Virus record (IMG/VR): IMGVR_UViG_3300037010_001198
Span: 1 to 64,000 of that record
Reading direction: 5' to 3' (one strand)
DNA from: a virus
DNA length: 64,000 nt
Part shown: piece by piece, positions 3,744 to 60,805 of the stretch
How the letters are laid out: each line of letters begins with the position of its first letter
How positions within the stretch are numbered: the first letter of the stretch is position 1
Position numbers and translations under genes: made by a program
The notes under the pieces: model-generated
The model's database searches: none
What the model was told of the DNA's origin: nothing
What the model saw: only the letters and a program-made list of their open reading frames with translations

Positions 3744-4553
3744 ATGATTGATACAGTTACAGGTTTATTAGCTGCTGGTCAACAACCAGTGGGAACAATT
3801 GGAAGTTTATATAAAGATCCTTCAGCAGAAGGACGAAATGTGTTATTGGATGAAAAAACTTCTCTACTTGATATTCATGATTATTTGGGTTTACCACAAC
3901 CAACCGTTAGTACTTTTGATAATTTTGATACTATCGTATCAAATCATTTCCTTGGTTCAAATGGTTCTCCCGGGAAGATAGATAAAATGCCCCAAGAGCT
4001 TGCATTGACACAATCAGTATCTGCTGTTAGAAATATAATAAGCCAAGCTGAACCCACCCAACCAGGACCAACAACAAACTCTTCTGGTTGCCCAAGTTTG
4101 TTTGATGATATTTTTGGAACCATAAAAAAGATTTCTTCAGTTATTGGAAATGCTTTAACAAGTATAAAATCAGCATTCCAAAGTGTATTTGATGATATTT
4201 CTGCATTTACAGGAAAGATTTATAACTCAATAAAAGATTTAGCTAAAGATGTTGTCGGAAACCCTGTTGTCAAATCATTCCTTCAAGGTTTGTCAGATTT
4301 TACAACAAAAATAGGTAGTGCTGTTAGTGATACAATAACAGCTGTAGGAAAAGCAATTGGAGACTTCACAACATTAGTTCAAAAAGAAACAGCAGAACTC
4401 GGAAAGGCAATGAAAGATCTTTTAAATTTTCATTTTTTAAGTTCTTTGAATACCACAAATCCTTGTGTTCAGGATATACACAATCAAACAATCAACAAAG
4501 ACCAATTAAGTTCAACTGTGATTGCTGCGCTGAAAAGAATCACAATCACGTAA
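3744..4553 (+). CDS. Virion-associated candidate next to PAAR gene
   Basis: 269 residues from the ATG at 3744, preceded by GGAG. The N-terminal third is polar; residues from about 115 to 230 form a run of amphipathic helices rich in Phe, Ser and Ile (IKKISSVIGNALTSIKSAF, IGSAVSDTITAVGKAIGDF). The end has a pair of Cys-containing polar stretches. No family is recognised. Its place directly behind the PAAR gene suggests a spike- or tail-associated protein; that is inference from position only. Confidence 0.55.
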   Translation: MIDTVTGLLAAGQQPVGTIGSLYKDPSAEGRNVLLDEKTSLLDIHDYLGLPQPTVSTFDNFDTIVSNHFLGSNGSPGKIDKMPQELALTQSVSAVRNIISQAEPTQPGPTTNSSGCPSLFDDIFGTIKKISSVIGNALTSIKSAFQSVFDDISAFTGKIYNSIKDLAKDVVGNPVVKSFLQGLSDFTTKIGSAVSDTITAVGKAIGDFTTLVQKETAELGKAMKDLLNFHFLSSLNTTNPCVQDIHNQTINKDQLSSTVIAALKRITIT

Positions 4554-4629
4554 ATTTCTATACACTTTTTGTTGGTTTTCGTATATAATATACAAAACGG
4601 TTGAATGAAATACAGTGAAATCACAATTA

Positions 4630-6117
4630 ATGGAATATAACCTTTTTATACAACGGAATGGTAAATTAACTATATCTCCGTCGTATAATAAAATTATAAA
4701 CAAACATGAATTTTTATTTAACCGAATCAGAGAATTAACAAAATTTTTACCTGAACACGTTTCAACATATGAACGACTTTATTGCATATTACATAATATA
4801 AGTGAATCTCCAACGTGTGGGTATTGTTCTAACTTAATTCAATTTAGTCAAGGCAAAAAACACTATGCAACATATTGTCGCTCGTGTGTTCAAAAAGTTC
4901 CCGAAATAAGAGAAAAATATTACCAAAAAATGGAAGATAAATATGGGGAGAAAATCCCAGCAAAAGTTCCATCTATTCAGCACCAGATTCAATCTACAAT
5001 GGTTGAAAGATATGGAACATCAAGCTACTTGGGATCAGATAAACACAAGAATGATCAAATAGAAAAAAATAATTTATTACGAGATGGTCTTTATCCGAAC
5101 ACATTTAAAATTAAAGACATTTTACACAAAATTGATGACCCAGGTTGGTTAACTGAAGAGAATAAAAATAAATCCTTAATTCAGATTGCAACTGAACTTA
5201 ACGTAAGTCCGTCATTAATCCAAAAACGATTCAATTTGTTTGATATCACCGTTCAACAACATTTCCAATCTCAACCAGAACGCGAAGTTTGCGATTTTAT
5301 TGCTTCACTTGGAATCGAAGTACAAACGAGAGTAAAAAAGTTTGGACCAGAAGTAGATGTTTATCTTCCAGAATACTCAATTGCTATAGAAATTGATGGA
5401 GTATACTGGCATAGTGAATTGAATGGAAAAAACAGAACATATCATATATCCAAAACAAATATGTTAAATTTACATGGTATTAGATTAATTCACATTATAG
5501 ACGTTGAGTGGATTAATAAAAAAGATATTGTAAAATCGAGAATTTTATCATTATTAAATAAAAATACTGAAAAAATATACGCCCGAAAATGTAATATCGT
5601 AAATGTTAATTTTTCAGAAAGAAGAAATTTTATGAATGCGTATCATATTCAAGGTGATGTTGGTAGTTCTTATAACATAGGTCTTACGTTTGAAGATAAA
5701 TTAGTAAGTGTTATGACTTTTGGAAAACCGCGATATGGAAAAGAAGAGTACGAATTAATCCGATTTGCTTCAAAACTTAACACCACTGTTGTGGGGGGTG
5801 CATCTAAATTATTTAAACACTTCATTTTAGAAAAATCTCCCGCGTCTGTAATATCCTATAGCGATAAACGATATAACACAGGAGGAGTATATTTAAATTT
5901 GGGGTTTACATTATCCCACACAAGTTCACCCAATTATTGGTATTTTCACAGAAACAATCCATATCAACTATACTCAAGGAACGTATTTCAGAAACACAAA
6001 TTGAGTGAAAAATTGGATTTATTCGATCCACTTAAAACTGAATGGAATAATATGATCAATAATGGTTATGATCGTATATGGGATTGTGGCAATGATGTGT
6101 GGACTTGGAAACCATAA
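4630..6117 (+). CDS. Free-standing homing endonuclease, copy 1 (PD-(D/E)XK/EDxHD type)
   Basis: 495 residues from ATG 4630 (GTG 4615 is an alternative). Order of parts: zinc-finger-like C63xxC66...C83xxC86; DNA-binding spacer with a VERYG motif; helix-turn-helix near 182-203 (SLIQIATELNVSPSLIQKRF); nuclease core at about 215-265 with VDVYLPEYSIAIEIDGVYWH (D243, E254, D256, H261); and a C-terminal region of about 200 residues ending CGNDVWTW. The C-terminal part (GGASKLFKHF, SYSDKRYNTGGVYLNLGF) has an acetyltransferase-like look. Three relatives lie in this window. It sits between the PAAR-linked gene and the gene at 6192, on the plus strand. Nuclease family from motif; mobility inferred. Confidence 0.8.
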   Translation: MEYNLFIQRNGKLTISPSYNKIINKHEFLFNRIRELTKFLPEHVSTYERLYCILHNISESPTCGYCSNLIQFSQGKKHYATYCRSCVQKVPEIREKYYQKMEDKYGEKIPAKVPSIQHQIQSTMVERYGTSSYLGSDKHKNDQIEKNNLLRDGLYPNTFKIKDILHKIDDPGWLTEENKNKSLIQIATELNVSPSLIQKRFNLFDITVQQHFQSQPEREVCDFIASLGIEVQTRVKKFGPEVDVYLPEYSIAIEIDGVYWHSELNGKNRTYHISKTNMLNLHGIRLIHIIDVEWINKKDIVKSRILSLLNKNTEKIYARKCNIVNVNFSERRNFMNAYHIQGDVGSSYNIGLTFEDKLVSVMTFGKPRYGKEEYELIRFASKLNTTVVGGASKLFKHFILEKSPASVISYSDKRYNTGGVYLNLGFTLSHTSSPNYWYFHRNNPYQLYSRNVFQKHKLSEKLDLFDPLKTEWNNMINNGYDRIWDCGNDVWTWKP

Positions 6118-35836: not shown

Positions 35837-37222
35837 TTACCTTCTCCAATACTTTCCTCGAGTCTTATCTTCATAACCAATAGAGGGATCATCATATGAA
35901 TATTTTGGTTCATGTGAGTAATCTGTTTTTGTTGTTGTTCGAGCATATGGTTCATGAGATGGAAGCCTGTTTGTCCATTTGGCAGGTTCCTCTCCAGCAA
36001 CTGCCGCCTCGGAAGGTGGAGAACCGTTAAAATGAACTTGACTTCCTTTACCTAATATGTTCCCACCAGCAAACAAATGAAGTGTTCCACCTGTTTTAAT
36101 CATTCCTTCAGTTCCCACATTAATATTTAAATTTGTGTCTGTCTGTAAATTCATATCTGAAGCCGAATGAACTTTAACATACGTTCCAGCCTTTATATGC
36201 AAGTCTTCTATCGTTTGAATTCTTACTTGTTTAGTGAACATATGAATTGCTTCGTCAGCATACATACGAATTGATTTGTTCGCCGTAAAATTAATATCAC
36301 CTTCTGTTCTAACGTTAACTTTCGTTGCTGAATATATGTCAATGTTTCCATCTTCATCAAATTCTATCCAACTGTTTCCGTTGCTTGTATTAATATAAAT
36401 TCTTTCATTTGTGTCATCTAAAATTATTTGGTGGCCAGATGTTGTTCGAATTTTAACTCTACAATTTTCTTTCCTGTCATCCATTGATATTGAATGGAAA
36501 CCAGGTGATGTCCAAGAATACACCTGTGAGTCAAAATTTTCTTTTGTAGTAGATGATGCTAATGTTGGTTCAATTTGACTTAATCCATATCCCTGTCTAA
36601 TATTAACTGTTTTCCCATCAGCTGATGTAAACTTGTGATCTTTGTCATCAGGTGTTGAATTTATTCCATCTGTTATATAGAAATCACCAGAAGTCGCTGA
36701 AACAGAATAATCAGCACCCCTTGTTCTCCATTCATAGTTCCCTGTTCTTGAACCAAAAGCGTTTGTTTGATTATCATATAAAGGTTGAATTGGTTGTTCG
36801 TATGAATCAAGTGGCCCATCTGGTTCTCCGTCCCCAAATATGAAACGTCCGTGTGGGAGTGTGTGACTCAAACGTTCTGTGTGTAAACTTCCAATCCACA
36901 ACCTTGACATTGGATGTCCATCAATACACGTAACAACCACCGTTGTTCCAATCTTGGGAATATTCCAAAACCCATAAGCAACTGGACCATTAGAAGAAGC
37001 TTCTTCAGTTCCCCTTTTAATTTTATCATTATTAACAGTTCCACCCAGAGGGGAAACACATACAGCCCACGGAAGATTTTCAGTTGGCATATCAGGTCTG
37101 TCACCATAACTTGGAACCAATACACGAACTCTTCCAGTTTGTTGAGGGTCATTTGTATCAACAACAGTACCTACTGTAAACCCAGAATAATTTGGATTAT
37201 TAAAAGTAGAAGAAGTAGACAT
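35837..37222 (-). CDS. 5: Central spike / baseplate hub protein gp5-like, no lysozyme domain
   Basis: 461 residues. N-terminal OB fold (GFTVGTVVDTNDPQQTGRVRVLVPSYG), a middle part with GFWNIPKIGTTVVVTCIDGHP and LWIGSL, then a C-terminal beta-helix with repeated short strands (TKVNVRTEGDINFTA, SIRMYADEAIHMFT, DLHIKAGTYVKVHSASDMNLQTDTN-type). This is the gp5/VgrG needle architecture. The T4 lysozyme domain between OB fold and needle is absent, as in many marine T4-like phages. The PAAR protein at 3434 should cap it. The C-terminal about 60 residues are polar and Tyr/Lys-rich. Confidence 0.85.
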   Translation of the reverse strand: MSTSSTFNNPNYSGFTVGTVVDTNDPQQTGRVRVLVPSYGDRPDMPTENLPWAVCVSPLGGTVNNDKIKRGTEEASSNGPVAYGFWNIPKIGTTVVVTCIDGHPMSRLWIGSLHTERLSHTLPHGRFIFGDGEPDGPLDSYEQPIQPLYDNQTNAFGSRTGNYEWRTRGADYSVSATSGDFYITDGINSTPDDKDHKFTSADGKTVNIRQGYGLSQIEPTLASSTTKENFDSQVYSWTSPGFHSISMDDRKENCRVKIRTTSGHQIILDDTNERIYINTSNGNSWIEFDEDGNIDIYSATKVNVRTEGDINFTANKSIRMYADEAIHMFTKQVRIQTIEDLHIKAGTYVKVHSASDMNLQTDTNLNINVGTEGMIKTGGTLHLFAGGNILGKGSQVHFNGSPPSEAAVAGEEPAKWTNRLPSHEPYARTTTKTDYSHEPKYSYDDPSIGYEDKTRGKYWRR

Positions 37223-37223
37223 A

Positions 37224-37844
37224 TTATGTTATATCCCTAAACCACGATATATAATCACCAGGAAAATCCTTTATATTAAACAAAAACGGGACCTGGGTGG
37301 CTACGTGAAATCGCGCCTGGAATAAATCCCCTACTAAAATTTTAGTTGATATGTTTATAAAATGAGGATCACTGGGATAAATTATCAATGTTCCACGTTG
37401 GGGGTTGAAACCAAAATTCCATTGAGGGAATTCAAGTTTTCCCCCATAAACTTCAAACTCATCATCAAAGGGAATATTATCTTGATAATCCGACAAAAAC
37501 AAAATTGCAGAAAAGTCACGATCTCTTGTTTTAACCCATTTATTGTGTAAACGAGAACTATTTTCACAAGTAAATGAACCTTCAGCACCTTCAGTGAGCC
37601 ACTCTATTAATATTGGTTCTGTTCCTCTATATGATACACCATAATGTTGTTCTATTTGGGGAATGATTTGTTCAAACCTACTAAAAAGAATTTTTTGAGC
37701 TTCATCGTTTTGTCGAATTGTTACTTGAGGAATTCCTTCTTTATTCGTTTCTGGCATCAAAAAATCAACAGCATTCACAATTTGTTCACACAACAAAGGA
37801 GAAACAAAATTTTGAATTACAAGAAAAGGTGATTTAACTTCCAT
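37224..37844 (-). CDS. 2OG-Fe(II) oxygenase-like protein
   Basis: 206 residues. The core RDRDFSAILFLSDYQ, VYGGKLEFPQWNFGFNPQRGTLIIYPSDPHFI and TKILVGDLFQARFH fits the prolyl-4-hydroxylase-like double-stranded beta helix found in many T4-superfamily phages. The distal His (PSDPH) and the Gly-x-x-x-x-R region are present. The usual proximal HxD is not clear: the candidate is L-H-N-K, without the Asp. It may be degenerate or use another ligand. It lies between the peptidase-like gene and gp5, coupled to both within a few bases. Confidence 0.7.
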   Translation of the reverse strand: MEVKSPFLVIQNFVSPLLCEQIVNAVDFLMPETNKEGIPQVTIRQNDEAQKILFSRFEQIIPQIEQHYGVSYRGTEPILIEWLTEGAEGSFTCENSSRLHNKWVKTRDRDFSAILFLSDYQDNIPFDDEFEVYGGKLEFPQWNFGFNPQRGTLIIYPSDPHFINISTKILVGDLFQARFHVATQVPFLFNIKDFPGDYISWFRDIT

Positions 37845-37847
37845 ATA

Positions 37848-38819
37848 TTATGACTCCAGGTTTTCCATAATTTTTATTGTATCCATTTTAACATGTCCCA
37901 GTAACGTCGAAAACGTGACTTCTTGTTTTACCAAGTACTCATACAATGCATGAACATCAGACGTTTTTCCTGTTAAACTGTCTTCTGTTCCACAAACAGA
38001 TTCATCTATTTCAAGACCTTCTATCTCTTCCAATATTAACTCCCATTCTTCAGCAGAAACCGGAACAGACAAATCAATAGATTCTAATGTCGGATCGATC
38101 TTATAACCAATACCACTTAATAAATTCATTCCGATTAATAATTTATCTTCCATATCTTCCCTATCATTCAGGTTAAACATTACATCTGGAACAACCTTTT
38201 CTCCATACTTAACAGTAAACTGAACAACAGGACGATATTTGATTCCTCCATCGGCTGATTGTACAGATTGGTATTGAGCTAAACCAACCGAATATCGTTT
38301 TCCGTTAAATTCAAAATCAACGATCTCTTGCTCTGGTTCATATGGATCTTTTCGGATTTTAATATTTGTAGCATGAAGTGAGTTTATTGTTGCTCCAGTG
38401 TCTACTTTTCCACGAATGGTCTGATTATCATTAAAACCATTCAATATAACGTCTATGTGAGAACCTATCACTGGCTCTTCAGGTTTTTCGTTCTTACTGG
38501 CTTGCTGGGACTCTGTCTTCATAACACTTTCTTCAGAACCACCCCTGAAATGACCAACAAGTTTTACGAGAAGTGGAGAAATGACAAGTCCAGATTTCAT
38601 AGACCAAACCAGTACCAACCGTTGTCCGGAGGATTTTGGGTGTTCGTTGTAAAGTGCTAATATTTTCTTTCCATTGTTTAATTCAATCACGCTTGATGGA
38701 ATTAAACTTTCTCTAAAAGAAAAGGCTGTTGCACCAATTGTTATTTCACTTGGAATTTTTGAAATTTCGTGTGATTTAAATGCTTTATTTAATTGCTCGA
38801 TTGAAGTAAACGTATCCAT
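37848..38819 (-). CDS. Retropepsin-like (RimB/ATP-dependent zinc protease-type) aspartic peptidase
   Basis: 323 residues. Residues 134-152 read TIRGKVDTGATINSLHATN, the DTGA active-site loop (D140) of the PF05618/RimB-like family, followed by VDFEFNGKRYSV, RPVVQFTVKYGEKVVPDVMFNLNDRE and LLIGMNLLSGIG, which is the second half of the single-lobe retropepsin fold. An N-terminal about 110 residues of unknown role and a C-terminal helical tail flank it. The substrate is unknown; virion-protein processing is a guess from its place among structural genes. Confidence 0.72.
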   Translation of the reverse strand: MDTFTSIEQLNKAFKSHEISKIPSEITIGATAFSFRESLIPSSVIELNNGKKILALYNEHPKSSGQRLVLVWSMKSGLVISPLLVKLVGHFRGGSEESVMKTESQQASKNEKPEEPVIGSHIDVILNGFNDNQTIRGKVDTGATINSLHATNIKIRKDPYEPEQEIVDFEFNGKRYSVGLAQYQSVQSADGGIKYRPVVQFTVKYGEKVVPDVMFNLNDREDMEDKLLIGMNLLSGIGYKIDPTLESIDLSVPVSAEEWELILEEIEGLEIDESVCGTEDSLTGKTSDVHALYEYLVKQEVTFSTLLGHVKMDTIKIMENLES

Positions 38820-38842
38820 TGTAATAATCCCCGACTTTAGGT

Positions 38843-38850
38843 TATTTATT
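38843..38850 (-). promoter_or_regulatory. T4 late-type promoter for the peptidase-gp5-gp25 group
   Basis: AATAAATAAC on the minus strand 24 bases before 38819. One mismatch from consensus. Confidence 0.5.
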
Positions 38851-38883
38851 AAACCTGCATTGTAGAGAAAACAAAGGAGGGTT

Positions 38884-39555
38884 TTATTTCTTCACACGGT
38901 TGGTATAAAATTCATTCACACGTTTTTTGAGAGGTGACACATAAGGTAAAATATTCTTTTTAAATATAAGAGGAACTGCACCTTTTTCAACAGCCATTAT
39001 AGTTACAATTTGTAAAATTTCTTCTCCAAAGTTTTCCAAATAAGCAAGAGCATAAAAAGTTTCTTGAAGAAAATAATCTTCAATCATACTTTCATCCTTA
39101 TTCCCGTTTGAAGTTTTAAAGTCAATAACCGACAACACTTTATCAAATTCCGCAATACAATCAACCCTACCAGCAACTTGAAATTCTTTACTGTACAGTG
39201 GTACTTCTTGAACACGTATATTGTTTATCCTATTAAGCCCAAATCTTATCTGATTGAACAGCTTAACATATTCATTTGGCTGACCCTTAAGTGGATCTTC
39301 TTCGTTATTTAAATACTTTTCAGCTATTAAATGAACTGCTGTTCCTCGCTCAGCACAACGATCAGTTTCTTTCTTGGCTTTATCGGGACCTAGCATCTTC
39401 TTCCAATTTTCAAGATGTGGCTTTTCCTTTGTTCCTAAAACAGACGTAATAGACGGATACAAATCACCTTCAGGAGTTTTATACCACCGCAACCCATCAA
39501 CCGTCTTTGTTTTCATTTCCTCGAAAACAGGAACGTTCACATGGTTAAATCTCAT
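38884..39555 (-). CDS. PD-(D/E)XK exonuclease (RecB/Cas4-like)
   Basis: 223 residues. Motifs in order: RGTAVHLIAE (H75), VQEVPLYSKEFQVAGRVDCIAEF (E117, D132), VIDFKTS (D145, K147) and QETFYALAY (Q164). This is the full RecB-type nuclease core, in a size typical of phage exonucleases of this class. It starts within the stop of the 39552 gene (ATGA). Likely acts on DNA ends in recombination or host DNA degradation. No helicase partner is adjacent. Confidence 0.82.
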   Translation of the reverse strand: MRFNHVNVPVFEEMKTKTVDGLRWYKTPEGDLYPSITSVLGTKEKPHLENWKKMLGPDKAKKETDRCAERGTAVHLIAEKYLNNEEDPLKGQPNEYVKLFNQIRFGLNRINNIRVQEVPLYSKEFQVAGRVDCIAEFDKVLSVIDFKTSNGNKDESMIEDYFLQETFYALAYLENFGEEILQIVTIMAVEKGAVPLIFKKNILPYVSPLKKRVNEFYTNRVKK

Positions 39556-56376: not shown

Positions 56377-57380
56377 TTCCTTTTACTCCTTTCGCATAAC
56401 AAACTCACACGTAGTTCCGCTTCAAACCCATATACAACATTTTCCATTAACGTCTTCATTACAAATAACTTTCCATATTTTACGATTGCGTCGTTAACAT
56501 CTTTACAATCGTCAAAAGGAAGAACACAAACACCCCAACCATGTTGAATTCCCTGAAGTGCTAACAATCCACCGTCACCTTTCCTGTCAGGAATTACAAC
56601 TTTTTTTCTTGGAGAAGCATTTATAAGTGATATCTGATGTGTAGACATTTCATTACCAAATACTGCAACTCCTTCTATATGAAATGCATCAAAAAACCCT
56701 TCTACTACAAATAACGGTTGTTCGGTGTTCGAAAACAAATGATCAAATCCGTAAATTACCGAACCTTTTGATACACTTTCAGAACTTAAATATTTTGTTT
56801 TCTTTGAATCTGTTAAATCTCTGCCTTGCCAAAAAACCAATCTGTCGTCTTTGTATATTGGAATAATTAATCTGTGTTTCCACATATTTTCCAATTTTGT
56901 TCCACCTTTGGACAAATAAAACTTATAATCATCAATATCTATTCCACGAGTAAGAAGATATTCCTGAGCAATTTGGCTCCACACATCATCCTCATCTTGT
57001 ATAACTCTATAGAAATGTTTTGGAAGAGGTATCGTGTTAATTGCTTGAAATGTTGTTTTGGTTGGTGATGAAGTTTTTTGTAACTTTTTCCTTTTAAACA
57101 ACTCAAACTTTAGTTTTGTTATAACGTCTTCTGGAACTCCGAATGAATCTAAAACTTTTATCATATCATCAGATAAAAACCCAATCTCTTCATCATAAGT
57201 AGCTGCTATGGAACAATTAAAGCAGTGGTATGAAGTTTTTACATCTTCAAACTTCCACCCACCACGCTTTTTATATTTGTGGTCATTACATACGGGACAG
57301 CGAAGAGTATACCAACCTTTCGGTGAGGTTTTACTGGGCAATGGGATATATTGCCTAACTATACTCTCAACACTGTTCAT
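56373..57380 (-). CDS. 61: DNA primase gp61
   Basis: 335 residues (T4 gp61 has 342). CHC2-type zinc finger C28xxC31...C53xxC56, then TOPRIM motifs FVVEGFFDAFHIEG (catalytic Glu) and VVIPDRKGDGG (DxD-like). WKHRLIIPIYKDDRLVFWQGRDL is the conserved linker before TOPRIM. Makes the RNA primers for lagging-strand synthesis with gp41. It lies 15 bases after the ClpP-like gene and so is in its operon. Confidence 0.92.
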   Translation of the reverse strand: MNSVESIVRQYIPLPSKTSPKGWYTLRCPVCNDHKYKKRGGWKFEDVKTSYHCFNCSIAATYDEEIGFLSDDMIKVLDSFGVPEDVITKLKFELFKRKKLQKTSSPTKTTFQAINTIPLPKHFYRVIQDEDDVWSQIAQEYLLTRGIDIDDYKFYLSKGGTKLENMWKHRLIIPIYKDDRLVFWQGRDLTDSKKTKYLSSESVSKGSVIYGFDHLFSNTEQPLFVVEGFFDAFHIEGVAVFGNEMSTHQISLINASPRKKVVIPDRKGDGGLLALQGIQHGWGVCVLPFDDCKDVNDAIVKYGKLFVMKTLMENVVYGFEAELRVSLLCERSKRK

Positions 57381-57395
57381 AGAAAAGAACTATTC

Positions 57396-58088
57396 CTATA
57401 CCGTAGTAGCTTCTAGAACTGCTTCTTTTGACTCCACAACTGTCTTGGTTTTCTTAACCTTCGGTGGTTTAGGAGCATCTGCGAGTTCTTTTGCTTTAGC
57501 TATATTTTTTAGACGTTTGTTGATTTGATCAGAATCCATCCAAAAATCTTCACCTTTAATAATTTGATTAACTTCATCAGGAGTCAAAAAAGGAACACAG
57601 ACATTCTTTAGAAGATTGTTGTACAGTTGGATAGCAGCAGTCAGTTCTTTGAATTGTTCGTTCCCTTTTGCACCTGAAGAACCACCACCTGAAAAATCGT
57701 GGAACATCATTCGACAGTTTTCATGAACAATGTGTTGGTCTGCTGCAAGAAATATAATTGCTCCCATAGACGATGCTTCAGCTTCTAATACTGCTACGAT
57801 GGTTGCATCTGATGAACGTAAAGCATTGACAATTTGAATGCCTGTATCCAATCTTCCACCCGGAGTATTTAAACAAATAAACACCATATCATCAGCTCCC
57901 GCATGACGAATTGTGTGAATCATGTCTGTGTATTCGCTAGGCTCTCTAATTGTTGAACTAATGTAAAACCAATATTCGGTTGCTTGATGGGTATGACTGT
58001 ATAACGTGAATGCGGGTGGGCTTTGTAAAGGGAGGTCATCAAAATCTTGTTCGGAATTTCTACTTGAATGCTTTATAATTTTTTTCAT
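57396..58088 (-). CDS. ClpP-like serine protease
   Basis: 230 residues. ICLNTPGGRLDTGIQIVNAL (oxyanion region), LEAEASSMGAIIFLAA with nucleophile S107, and NCRMMFHDFSGG with catalytic H130 match ClpP. The third catalytic Asp is not obvious where ClpP has it (near FWMDSDQINKRL). A basic Lys/Pro tail (PKPPKVKKTKTVVE) is added at the C-terminus. ClpP needs an AAA+ partner such as host ClpX or ClpA. It has its own sigma70 promoter directly downstream of the tmRNA terminator. In other phages such proteins act as prohead proteases, but early-type control and distance from capsid genes argue against that here. Confidence 0.85.
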   Translation of the reverse strand: MKKIIKHSSRNSEQDFDDLPLQSPPAFTLYSHTHQATEYWFYISSTIREPSEYTDMIHTIRHAGADDMVFICLNTPGGRLDTGIQIVNALRSSDATIVAVLEAEASSMGAIIFLAADQHIVHENCRMMFHDFSGGGSSGAKGNEQFKELTAAIQLYNNLLKNVCVPFLTPDEVNQIIKGEDFWMDSDQINKRLKNIAKAKELADAPKPPKVKKTKTVVESKEAVLEATTV

Positions 58089-58121
58089 ATTATTTATTCC
58101 TTAAGTGGTTATTAAGTATTC

Positions 58122-58151
58122 ATTATACAGGATAATTTCAAAAGAAGTCAA
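58122..58151 (-). promoter_or_regulatory. sigma70-type promoter for ClpP-like/primase group
   Basis: TTGACT (58151-58146), 18-base spacer, TATAAT (58127-58122) on the minus strand, 34 bases before the ClpP-like start. Confidence 0.72.
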
Positions 58152-58157
58152 GAAAAG

Positions 58158-58185
58158 AAAAAGGGGGACCGAAGTCCCCCTTTTT
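58158..58185. terminator. Terminator after the tmRNA
   Basis: 12-bp perfect stem AAAAAGGGGGAC / GTCCCCCTTTTT with a 4-base loop (TTCG on the minus strand). T-runs on both sides. Confidence 0.93.
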
Positions 58186-58189
58186 GAAA

Positions 58190-58355
58190 CGTTGTGTAAT
58201 AAGGCGTTTCGCACCCCATTAACGGTCAAGCCGCTAAACGAGTTTCCCCGTAGAATGAATCATTTGCATTTATATGCTTTGCTATCTTAACGTCATTCGC
58301 CTGACGAGTTGCTTTATTAAGTACTCATTGTCCCAATCGAAACCATGACGGCCCC
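58190..58355 (-). other. tmRNA coding piece
   Basis: Begins with acceptor strand GGGGCCG at 58355, passes the D-like arm, pseudoknot 1 hairpin and tag frame, and ends in the stretch before the terminator. A GGGGTGCGAAACGCC segment after the tag stop may form the 3' stem of this piece. Confidence 0.75.
58226..58267 (-). other. tmRNA tag-coding frame (ANDSFYGETRLAA)
   Basis: GCA resume codon at 58267 then AAT GAT and ten further codons to TGA, encoding ANDSFYGETRLAA. AND at the start and LAA at the end are the usual tag ends; the final LAA is the degron read by ClpXP in bacteria. Confidence 0.85.
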
Positions 58356-58440
58356 CTCAAAAATACACAACACTGGCCCGGATTACTTTACATGACTCAT
58401 ATTACAATGAAGCATGATTTCATTTTGTCCTGTGCACTTT

Positions 58441-58555
58441 TGGTGGAGCCGAGGAGAGTCGAACTCCTGTCTTGAAACCCTTTCCAAAAGAAAGTTTACA
58501 ACCATTGCAAAATAATTTTAAAATTGCTTTGCAATGGCAACTATCCTCTGACTAA
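58441..58555 (-). other. tmRNA acceptor piece
   Basis: Ends CGGCTCCACCA at 58441. Upstream of the T arm are a 10-bp hairpin CCATTGCAAA / TTTGCAATGG (58537-58502) and a CTTTC-GAAAG hairpin, which could be part of the 3' pseudoknot region. The 5' end is uncertain. Confidence 0.65.
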
Positions 58556-58613
58556 TCCAATAGCTAAACCATAAAATGATAAAGCTAGAATTAAAAATCT
58601 GATATTCTTTACA

Positions 58614-59408
58614 TTATTTAGGTGATAATAACTGATAGCCCCAATATTCAATGATTTCTTTCTTAGGTTCAAAGAACTCATTAATTCTACTAACGATATC
58701 TGGATAGTATTCTATAAATCGCTTAAACTTATCATCTGCATCATTTTTGAGCTCTTTGACTTTTTGTCCTTTTATCCAAAGTTCTGATGAGAAATCAATA
58801 TACTTTAGTTCAGGGAGCCATAGAGCCATTTGATCTCGATGATATTCCGGTCTAGCAATAAAATCCTCATAAGTCATCACATAAGCAGTATCGCCTAAGA
58901 GTGCGATATTATCTCTTTGCACCTCAAGTGTACGTGTTACGTGGTAACAAATTTGATCTAATTGTCGAATAGGATCCATTTGAAATGTAGCTTTACGGAA
59001 GATAGATTCTACGTAGTGGTAAGGATTTCGAACTGATAGTATCCAGTTTAAATCATTAAAGTGAGGTAACATAGATTTAATTCTAAATATATCAGCTGGT
59101 GTCTTTTGCATTTTAATAGTGGCATATGGGTTTGTATTTCCCCAATTCTCTTCCCAGCGTGATTTAATCCAAGGCCAGTTATAGTTAGCTGGATCAGAAT
59201 ACACATGTTCCATATTCGCTTCAATTGAATGAGGTCCGTTTAATTTAAAATAACCTCCTGGCGCACAGATATTTCCTTCAACAAAATCCTTTTTACCATT
59301 AAATTCATTAGGACTTACTAAAGGTGTTATGTGTGGTACTGTTTCTAGAAGTGAATGTAGTAGTGTACTGCCACAAAAGTTAGGAATCGCTAGGAATAGA
59401 TAGGTCAT
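58614..59408 (-). CDS. Sulfotransferase-family protein
   Basis: 264 residues. FLAIPNFCGSTLLHSLLE (residues 5-22) corresponds to the 5'-phosphosulfate loop and ILSVRNPYHYVESIFRK (123-139; R127, S135) to the 3'-phosphate motif of PAPS-dependent sulfotransferases. It would move sulfate from PAPS to a carbohydrate, lipid or protein hydroxyl. It closes the adhesin cassette, 18 bases after the glycine-rich gene, and lies directly before the tmRNA. The target is unknown; modification of a surface glycan or of the fibre are possibilities. Confidence 0.75.
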   Translation of the reverse strand: MTYLFLAIPNFCGSTLLHSLLETVPHITPLVSPNEFNGKKDFVEGNICAPGGYFKLNGPHSIEANMEHVYSDPANYNWPWIKSRWEENWGNTNPYATIKMQKTPADIFRIKSMLPHFNDLNWILSVRNPYHYVESIFRKATFQMDPIRQLDQICYHVTRTLEVQRDNIALLGDTAYVMTYEDFIARPEYHRDQMALWLPELKYIDFSSELWIKGQKVKELKNDADDKFKRFIEYYPDIVSRINEFFEPKKEIIEYWGYQLLSPK

Positions 59409-59426
59409 TATTAATTTAGATTAAAG

Positions 59427-60320
59427 TTAAGTGATGCCACCATAGACTCGGGTATTACCAGATACCCAAGTAATTGCATTACCATTAGTATTGATAGCGA
59501 GGCCATGGCCTCCACCATTACCACCAGCAGCAGCCATACCTCCACCTTTACCACCCTTTCCACCACTAGCACCACCTCCACCACCTCCACCACCACTCCC
59601 ATAAGGAGATCCATTACCTCCATTTTGTCCAAGCCCGCCGCCATAGGCTATATGCACTCCTCCACCGCCATTACCGCCGTTAACCAAACCACCATTATTA
59701 CCGTATTGGTAGCCATTTCCACCTACACCAGAGATAGATCCAGCACCTCCACCACCGCCATCACCGTTAGAGCCTCCACCACCTCCACCACCGCCGCCGC
59801 CACTATAAATATACCCATTAGCATTAGTGATGGACACAGGCCATTGGAGGTTTATGCCAGGTCCACCGGCTATACCAGGAGTACCAGTAGCGAAGGTTGT
59901 CGAATTACCTCTACCACCTTTACCACCAGCACCAGCTATGTATCCATTATTTACAATAGAAATGGTGTCACCAGTCGCCCAACCACTACCAGTATCCAAT
60001 GAATAGGTAGTTCTACTAGTAGATCCAACCACTACACCACTGTTGATTGTTAAATTAATAGTGGAAATACCAGCTCTATAGTTACTACCTCTATTAGTAT
60101 AGATATTATAATTCTTAACATTACTAGCTATGGTAATATTAATCACATTACTATTGCTGTGTGATTTACCATATCCGTTTGCTAGTGATATTGAACCACT
60201 TGGAATACCGAATAAACTACGTACTGCTGCATCGTTTAATGAAATAGTAGCTGACGCTGAATAACCTAATTCTACGTCTACTTCTCCTAAATCTATAGCA
60301 CCACTAGCTGGTAATGTCAT
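59427..60320 (-). CDS. Glycine-rich tail-fibre adhesin (gp38-like)
   Basis: 297 residues. The N-terminal part (MTLPASGAIDLGEVDVELGYSAS, then SLFGIPSGSISLANGYGKS) is a fibre-binding region. From about residue 125 the chain is dominated by glycine-rich motifs (GGKGGRGN, a run of ten Gly, GGNGGGG, GGKGGKGGG) separated by short variable loops (GYQYGNN, VHIAYGGG, QNGGNGSPYGSG). This is the pattern of polyglycine-II adhesins such as T-even gp38, where the loops bind the receptor. Downstream of its likely chaperone in the same cassette. The strand opposite has a long open frame caused by glycine codons; it is a shadow. Confidence 0.78.
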   Translation of the reverse strand: MTLPASGAIDLGEVDVELGYSASATISLNDAAVRSLFGIPSGSISLANGYGKSHSNSNVINITIASNVKNYNIYTNRGSNYRAGISTINLTINSGVVVGSTSRTTYSLDTGSGWATGDTISIVNNGYIAGAGGKGGRGNSTTFATGTPGIAGGPGINLQWPVSITNANGYIYSGGGGGGGGGGSNGDGGGGGAGSISGVGGNGYQYGNNGGLVNGGNGGGGVHIAYGGGLGQNGGNGSPYGSGGGGGGGGASGGKGGKGGGMAAAGGNGGGHGLAINTNGNAITWVSGNTRVYGGIT

Positions 60321-60331
60321 AATGAATCCTC

Positions 60332-60805
60332 TTATTGTGTAACTGGCGACCCATCAGCATTAGTGACAGCCACACCGAATGGATTGGTTATTACTGAGGG
60401 AGGTATTGGCCAAACTACAGTAGTTGGGAATCCAGATTGTGTTGGTAGATTCCGTAATGCTTCACGATATGTAGCCCAATTAGTAGAAATAGGAGCTGCA
60501 GGCGAGTCAGGCAATTGCGTTTTGTCTGTAAGTGCTAATAGACGATTTCTAGCACGTCTAATTGCCAGTCCCATATCACTAACAGTAGGAGGCGTGATTA
60601 AAGACTGTAATGTAGCTTCGTTAGTGGCTGTAACTGGAGTCTGTGCTGCAATGTAGTTATCATAGTAGCTATCCAATAATGTGGTTAATGCAGTACCTTC
60701 AGGGTATAAGCCATTTACAATAGGTAGAGGAAAATTAATGTTATTGCCATTAATATTTAAAACGATAACGCCATTTTTAATAGAAGTAATTGTGTAGTTA
60801 GACAT
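60332..60805 (-). CDS. Tail-fibre assembly chaperone-like protein
   Basis: 157 residues. AIRRARNRLLALTDKTQLPDS, WATYREALRNLPTQSGFP and WPIPP are the signature of phage tail assembly chaperone proteins (PF16778-type), which usually sit beside adhesin genes. AAGGAAT upstream. Supports the adhesin call for the following gene. Confidence 0.82.
   Translation of the reverse strand: MSNYTITSIKNGVIVLNINGNNINFPLPIVNGLYPEGTALTTLLDSYYDNYIAAQTPVTATNEATLQSLITPPTVSDMGLAIRRARNRLLALTDKTQLPDSPAAPISTNWATYREALRNLPTQSGFPTTVVWPIPPSVITNPFGVAVTNADGSPVTQ

Follow-up and report, generated by a model that had tools for sequence, protein, structure and literature searches.

A circularly permuted tmRNA gene of betaproteobacterial type upstream of a predicted ClpP gene in a phage contig

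The locus considered here raises the question of whether a phage carries a working ssrA gene of its own, in circularly permuted form, and whether the ClpP-family gene beside it takes part in the function of that RNA. The DNA analyzed, referred to below as the window, comprises bases 1–64000 of a 72,685-bp IMG/VR virus record, and its neighboring genes encode topoisomerase II subunits, primase, a DnaB-like helicase, a baseplate hub/tail lysozyme, tail-fibre assembly proteins and ribonucleotide reductase. The topoisomerase is nearest to those of large myophages, and the source appears to be a T4-like phage, with a host among the Betaproteobacteria suggested by the match to the beta-type tmRNA model.

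The minus strand of the window carries, at 58536–58158, a circularly permuted tmRNA gene with the tag ANDSFYGETRLAA, as identified by Rfam covariance models and by ARAGORN. When the 64 kb were searched, RF04321 (tmRNA_permuted) matched with 124.1 bits against a cutoff of 47 (E = 8.7e-24) and RF01850 (beta_tmRNA) with 120.2 bits against a cutoff of 84 (E = 5.1e-36). Both models, which describe nested pairs only, are aligned end to end (1–213 of 213 and 1–331 of 331 positions, respectively) and span both pieces, with the acceptor/T piece 5′ of the tag piece on one strand, and thus in permuted order; no other Rfam family, the one-piece tmRNA RF00023 included, reached its gathering score in the window. 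Independently, ARAGORN called a tmRNA* at 58533–58135 with the same tag. These three detections and the surrounding phage genes bear out the initial annotation, which had proposed a phage-encoded permuted tmRNA with this tag and had named a covariance-model search as its check, a search in which the permuted models indeed match both pieces in permuted order. The elements that it had listed (acceptor halves, T arm, tag frame and terminator) were all located on the minus strand, and the processed ends it predicted at 58355 and 58441 agree exactly with the acceptor 5′ start and the end of the ACCA (Table 1). Its span of 58190–58555 placed the gene correctly, but the limits set by the models lie slightly lower at both ends. 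It had suggested that such a copy could sustain ribosome rescue or redirect the tag. It had also been unsure of precedent, and phage permuted tmRNAs are in fact already described as a kind in PMC9004378. Neither a blastn search of window positions 57300–60400 against named phages nor a comparison of the window tmRNA with plasmids gave a match.

Table 1. Coordinates of the features in the tmRNA–clpP region of the window
Feature	Position	Strand	Basis or remark
Acceptor (3′) piece	58441..58536	-	5′ limit 58536 by RF01850, 58503 by RF04321
T arm AGGAG-TTCGACT-CTCCT	58468-58452	-	sequence
Acceptor 3′ strand CGGCTCC	58451-58445	-	followed by ACCA ending at 58441
Intervening segment between the pieces, 85 nt after CCA	58356..58440	-	sequence, folding
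Coding (5′) piece	58158..58355	-	acceptor 5′ strand, D-arm region, tag frame, 3′ hairpins
Acceptor 5′ strand GGGGCCG	58355-58349	-	sequence
Pre-tag hairpin	58291..58308	-	stem modelled in RF01850
Tag reading frame, resume codon GCA to stop TGA, ANDSFYGETRLAA	58226..58267	-	ARAGORN and sequence
Intrinsic-terminator-like hairpin with T tail, 12-pair stem	58158..58185	-	terminator scan
Promoter-like site TTGACT-18-TATAAT, between tmRNA and clpP	58122..58151	-	11/12 consensus positions
Inverted repeat CCATTGCAAA...TTTGCAATGG, upstream edge of the tmRNA gene	58502..58537	-	sequence
Predicted ClpP-family serine protease gene, 230 aa, Ser107/His130/Asp181	57396..58088	-	profile, alignment, structure model
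Sulfotransfer_3 family match (8.8e-8), gene upstream of the tmRNA, close to tail-fibre genes	58614-59408		

The two acceptor halves of the window gene (GGGGCCG/CGGCTCC) form 7/7 pairs in the permuted order, including G3-U70, the AlaRS identity element. Counted with the CCA, the intervening segment has ends that can form an unbroken 13-pair stem continuing the acceptor stem. Terminator-like sites number four in the stretch against a shuffle mean of 0.6, and three of the four are the hairpin at 58185–58158 or its other strand; the evidence from the promoter-like site, on the other hand, is weak, because five such sites were found against a shuffle mean of 3.2 (sd 2.0).

Relatives were collected by scanning a degenerate pattern for AND..YGE.[RS][LF]AA over viral contigs and over 84,980 bacterial and archaeal genomes. 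The pattern matched 69 viral contigs, several of them near-identical, three being the contigs of L002, L003 and L010 and four those of L094–L097. As the pattern fixed most of the tag letters, their conservation is no independent evidence; the stop codon lies outside the pattern, and in 69/69 viral matches the tag frame is followed directly by a stop (e.g., ANDAFYGEDRLAA), with TTCGA at most 170 nt upstream of the tag in 66 of them. The genome collection gave 18 pattern places, 16 of which are standard one-piece tmRNAs according to ARAGORN. L108 is cut by a contig end and resembles one-piece tmRNAs in its upstream part, L107 is an ordinary frame, and L115 has a one-piece call together with an overlapping second ARAGORN call, permuted and with an unrelated tag. 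Since none of the 18 places is a permuted tmRNA with this tag class, the combination of permuted gene and tag class is confined to viral contigs in these scans. We note that the one-piece tmRNAs of many Betaproteobacteria MAGs (most of L100–L117) carry the tag ANDSFYGESRLAA, one residue from the window tag.

The tags of tmRNAs that were found through ClpP, and not through the tag, end in hydrophobic-Ala-Ala in 12 of 13 cases, the exception being L091 (ANVNMQFALAL); the tag frames of L003, L004, L010, L013 and L087 were read by eye or script. Many of the tag loci without a linked ClpP gene share a different neighborhood. Across 79 loci, ClpP-linked ones included and many of them short, a family whose representative matches phrog_11543 lies directly downstream in 46 and an exonuclease-family gene upstream in 39. 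A conserved hairpin inside the tag, as suggested by the window, L003 and L010, was rejected on inspection, being broken by mismatches in other tags. Separately, the permuted tmRNA of the viral contig L005 is highly typical of the beta type (269.2 bits) and possibly host-derived, and the record of L005 has no ClpP match.

Acceptor stems were parsed with a script that makes no demand on the acceptor letters and takes the placement with the most pairs beside the T arm; an earlier table, which had demanded TCC at the 3′ end, was redone in this manner because a required 3′ TCC forces U70. Among the 70 tag-bearing genes (the window and the 69), 63 could be parsed, and 62 of these have 7/7 acceptor pairs, a raw count from the most-pairs placement without a shuffled baseline, the remaining gene, L076, having only five. 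There are 11 different fully paired stems, after correction of a 1-nt register slip in three classes (eight genes), and the pairs 4-69, 5-68 and 6-67 switch type among the parsed genes, with G3-U70 in 63/63. The unparsed genes are L018, L021, L025, L036, L043, L052 and L082, of which L018, L021 and L036 are read only in the earlier table. The usual T-loop motif is TTCRA, and unusual T loops with acceptor pairing kept occur in L002/L021, L010/L064, L018, L036 and L004 (the last by eye).

The segment between the two pieces is highly variable among relatives, with 50 distinct segments (counted with CCA) of 15–212 nt and a median of 73. An end-stem of at least eight unbroken pairs is found in 32 of the 50, where simple shuffles give 3.2 on average, and 18 fall below this length; in 17 folded examples the end-stem stacks on the acceptor stem and places the variable part at the apex. 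Inside their intervening segments, L033 and L070 contain putative genes, frames of 47 and 61 codons, respectively, each with a start signal of the AAGGA type; a small gene considered in the segment of L057 was rejected, as its frame continues into the tmRNA. When 12 of the 69 tag loci were searched against Rfam at a lax E-value, no known family besides tmRNA was found for their segments, and four sub-cutoff matches (E 0.083–0.74) were taken as chance. The small frame of L070 and an inserted frame in L002 have no relatives in named phages, and three of these small frames gave no good PHROG match, the lowest E-value, 0.0048, being that of the L033 frame. In L002, a domain of the tmRNA gene has been swapped naturally: over a stretch reaching from the tag to past clpP, this locus is 98.7% identical to the window, while its positions 4387–4802 substitute 416 nt, carrying a 74-aa frame and a different (foreign) tRNA-like part, for 191 nt of the window including the tRNA-like part, with the tag part kept. 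Taken with the odd T loops and the five pairs of L076, this replacement makes either tolerance or decay possible.

Downstream of the terminator and the promoter-like site, the window encodes a protein that matches PF00574 with an E-value of 8.6e-11 and PDB ClpP chains with 1e-9 at best. A structure model built from 16 sequences has a mean pLDDT of 76.7 (57.3 in a first model), and its best Foldseek hit is ClpP (E = 1.4e-8, TM-score on target 0.68). Ser107, His130 and Asp181, which from the PDB alignment and E. coli ClpP numbering we take to be the catalytic triad, are invariant in 16/16 ClpP sequences, and by fold and triad the protein is a predicted ClpP peptidase. It matches 1574 named phage records, and ClpP-like genes are common in phages.

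Scanning viral contigs with the ClpP alignment gave 20 loci. In 16 of them the ClpP gene is preceded on its own strand by a permuted tmRNA, detected by covariance model in 13 (L002/L007, L003/L008, L004/L009, L010, L013 and L087–L094) and by ARAGORN in three (L095–L097), with L094–L097 looking like one virus. Linkage is lacking in four: L011, where the contig extends 507 bases upstream, L012, L098, whose contig has a tmRNA about 12 kb upstream, and the distantly matching L099 (26% identity). No tmRNA is found in the records of L011, L012 or L099. From the end of the tag to the first ATG of clpP, the distance is 102–1151 nt (13 loci). Approached from the tag, ClpP lies downstream on the same strand in 7/69 loci (L020, L021, L030, L034, L041, L064 and L082, with L082 an additional linked case), and L029 is too short to be judged locally, its contig having a ClpP gene (L094).

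From its sequence features, we read the gene as probably a working phage ssrA of the betaproteobacterial permuted type, one that would sustain ribosome rescue and tagging during infection. A precursor would be transcribed from the minus strand, with the intervening segment folded as a hairpin atop the acceptor stem, and host tRNA-processing enzymes would excise this segment to leave an RNA of two pieces with a CCA end. Host AlaRS could then charge the RNA via G3-U70, and host SmpB would bring it to ribosomes stalled on broken mRNA, which is expected to be abundant during infection. The tag ANDSFYGETRLAA, the C-terminal end of which is like those of known ssrA tags, would direct the released protein to ClpXP-type proteolysis, so that rescue and tagging would be kept up on the terms of the phage, perhaps with the involvement of phage ClpP subunits. 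No SmpB was found in 22 different phage records (0/8 and 0/14) and no AAA_2 domain (ClpX/ClpA/HslU class) in 8, records that may be incomplete, which implies that the phage must use the SmpB, AlaRS, processing enzymes and Clp ATPases of the host. A partnership of the tmRNA with the phage ClpP is plausible, its one basis being the gene neighborhood. We regard as unlikely a further-reaching version, namely a phage tag-and-degrade module in which ClpP, mounted on host ClpX or ClpA, digests tagged proteins, and in which the intervening segment acts as a docking site that accommodates exchangeable RNA inserts and, in L033 and L070, even small genes.

The chances are about even that the tmRNA–clpP neighborhood is simply a gene order inherited within a T4-like phage group, and as such uninformative on joint function. 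Such inheritance would suit the order of clpP and then primase that the window has in common with Xanthomonas phage XacN1 (ORF177 for the Clp protease, ORF176 for DNA primase), whose permuted tmRNA is yet about 49 kb from the ClpP gene, and it would suit the Synechococcus phage BUCT-ZZ01, in which about 41 kb separate a permuted tmRNA from a ClpP match that is weak (6.9e-13). The genome of phage Melnitz carries a permuted tmRNA but gave no ClpP match; no permuted tmRNA accompanies the ClpP-like genes of RAS14, AAS21, PWH3a-P1 and phi-pp2; and of 11 other tag-bearing contigs (51–170 kb) searched whole, ten gave no ClpP match and one a weak match (2.8e-9). The frequency of ClpP-like genes in named phage records, and gaps of 0.8–1.15 kb in L003, L087, L092 and L093, point the same way. 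What an inherited order accounts for less readily is that the 16 linked loci keep order and strand while their ClpPs, L002 apart, are just 41–69% identical to that of the window. Because the named-phage controls have the two genes apart or alone, we consider the linkage genuine within one broad group without holding generally.

The RNA itself might alternatively act as a decoy, titrating SmpB or charging and dampening host trans-translation instead of performing it. PMC4131195 and PMC11915505 report a tmRNA of mycobacteriophage DS6A with little beyond the tRNA-like domain, and the inhibition of E. coli tmRNA by such a molecule, and the absence of SmpB from the 22 records would also fit; a decoy, however, would need neither a frame that is open and stopped in all pattern matches nor a proteolysis-type tag end, and we judge this reading improbable. 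We give still less credence to a host ssrA copy that is decaying or a passenger, acquired by recombination and useless to the phage: the clade of the matching model (beta type), the T-loop oddities and the replacement in L002 speak for it, but it sits poorly with compensated acceptor variation that keeps seven pairs in all but one of the parsed genes, with a terminator of its own and a spread over dozens of contigs, and with a tag class unseen with a permuted gene among the pattern matches of the genome collection. A working phage ssrA remains our preferred reading.

For a 2021 phage set, PMC9004378 gives 133 unique phage tmRNAs, 53 of them permuted; 79 bacteriophage tmRNA sequences are counted in PMC11915505, and earlier phage ssrA genes are listed in PMC4131195. 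No description of the ClpP linkage, the tag or the tmRNA family of the window was found in our searches of open-licence PMC text, and a tmRNA family with a neighboring clpP may be previously undescribed. A family that shares one tag class and numbers at least 69 viral contigs, part of it tied to a ClpP gene, is hereby added to phage-encoded ribosome rescue, and, as the tag sequence can be searched for in infected-cell proteomes, why phages carry tmRNA can be put to the test. Furthermore, ARAGORN called no tmRNA at seven loci where a model match exceeds its cutoff (L002, L004, L010, L013, L087, L090 and L091), so that counts of phage tmRNAs made by ARAGORN alone are probably low.

With bacterial ClpP (PF00574), the predicted window protein shares the fold and, by alignment, the Ser/His/Asp triad, at about 17% identity over the structural alignment and with poorly predicted protein ends. 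XacN1 (AP018399) resembles the window in having a ClpP-family gene followed by primase, and a permuted tmRNA, here in two copies (123.2 bits) that are not beside clpP and whose tag, ANANTFDYALAA, differs from that of the window. These copies lie at AP018399.1 37231–37530 and 356026–356325, with no tmRNA feature annotated at 36000–39000 of the record, around the first; the BUCT-ZZ01 gene lies at ON615601.1 116952–117248, in a record stretch viewed without a tmRNA feature. According to PMC9004378, Methylophilales phage Melnitz and related pelagimyophages are T4-like and carry a complete permuted tmRNA, as the window does, and the Melnitz gene groups with Alphaproteobacteria and adjoins a glutamine riboswitch and a transcription coactivator, unlike the beta-type gene of the window; RF04321 scores it at 113.4 bits, against 124.1 for the window. 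The one-piece tmRNAs of Betaproteobacteria MAGs come within a single residue of the window tag, but are standard genes in cellular genomes. Close in build is the betaproteobacterial two-piece tmRNA (RF01850/RF04321), with which the window gene shares the permuted order, the G3-U70 acceptor, the T and D arms, the GCA resume codon and the Leu-Ala-Ala tag end, and from which it differs in being phage-borne, in a 13-residue tag with YGETR in place of the 10-residue ANDERFAIAA of the typical beta-type gene L005, and in an intervening segment where a run of nine model positions corresponds to 65 nt in the window.
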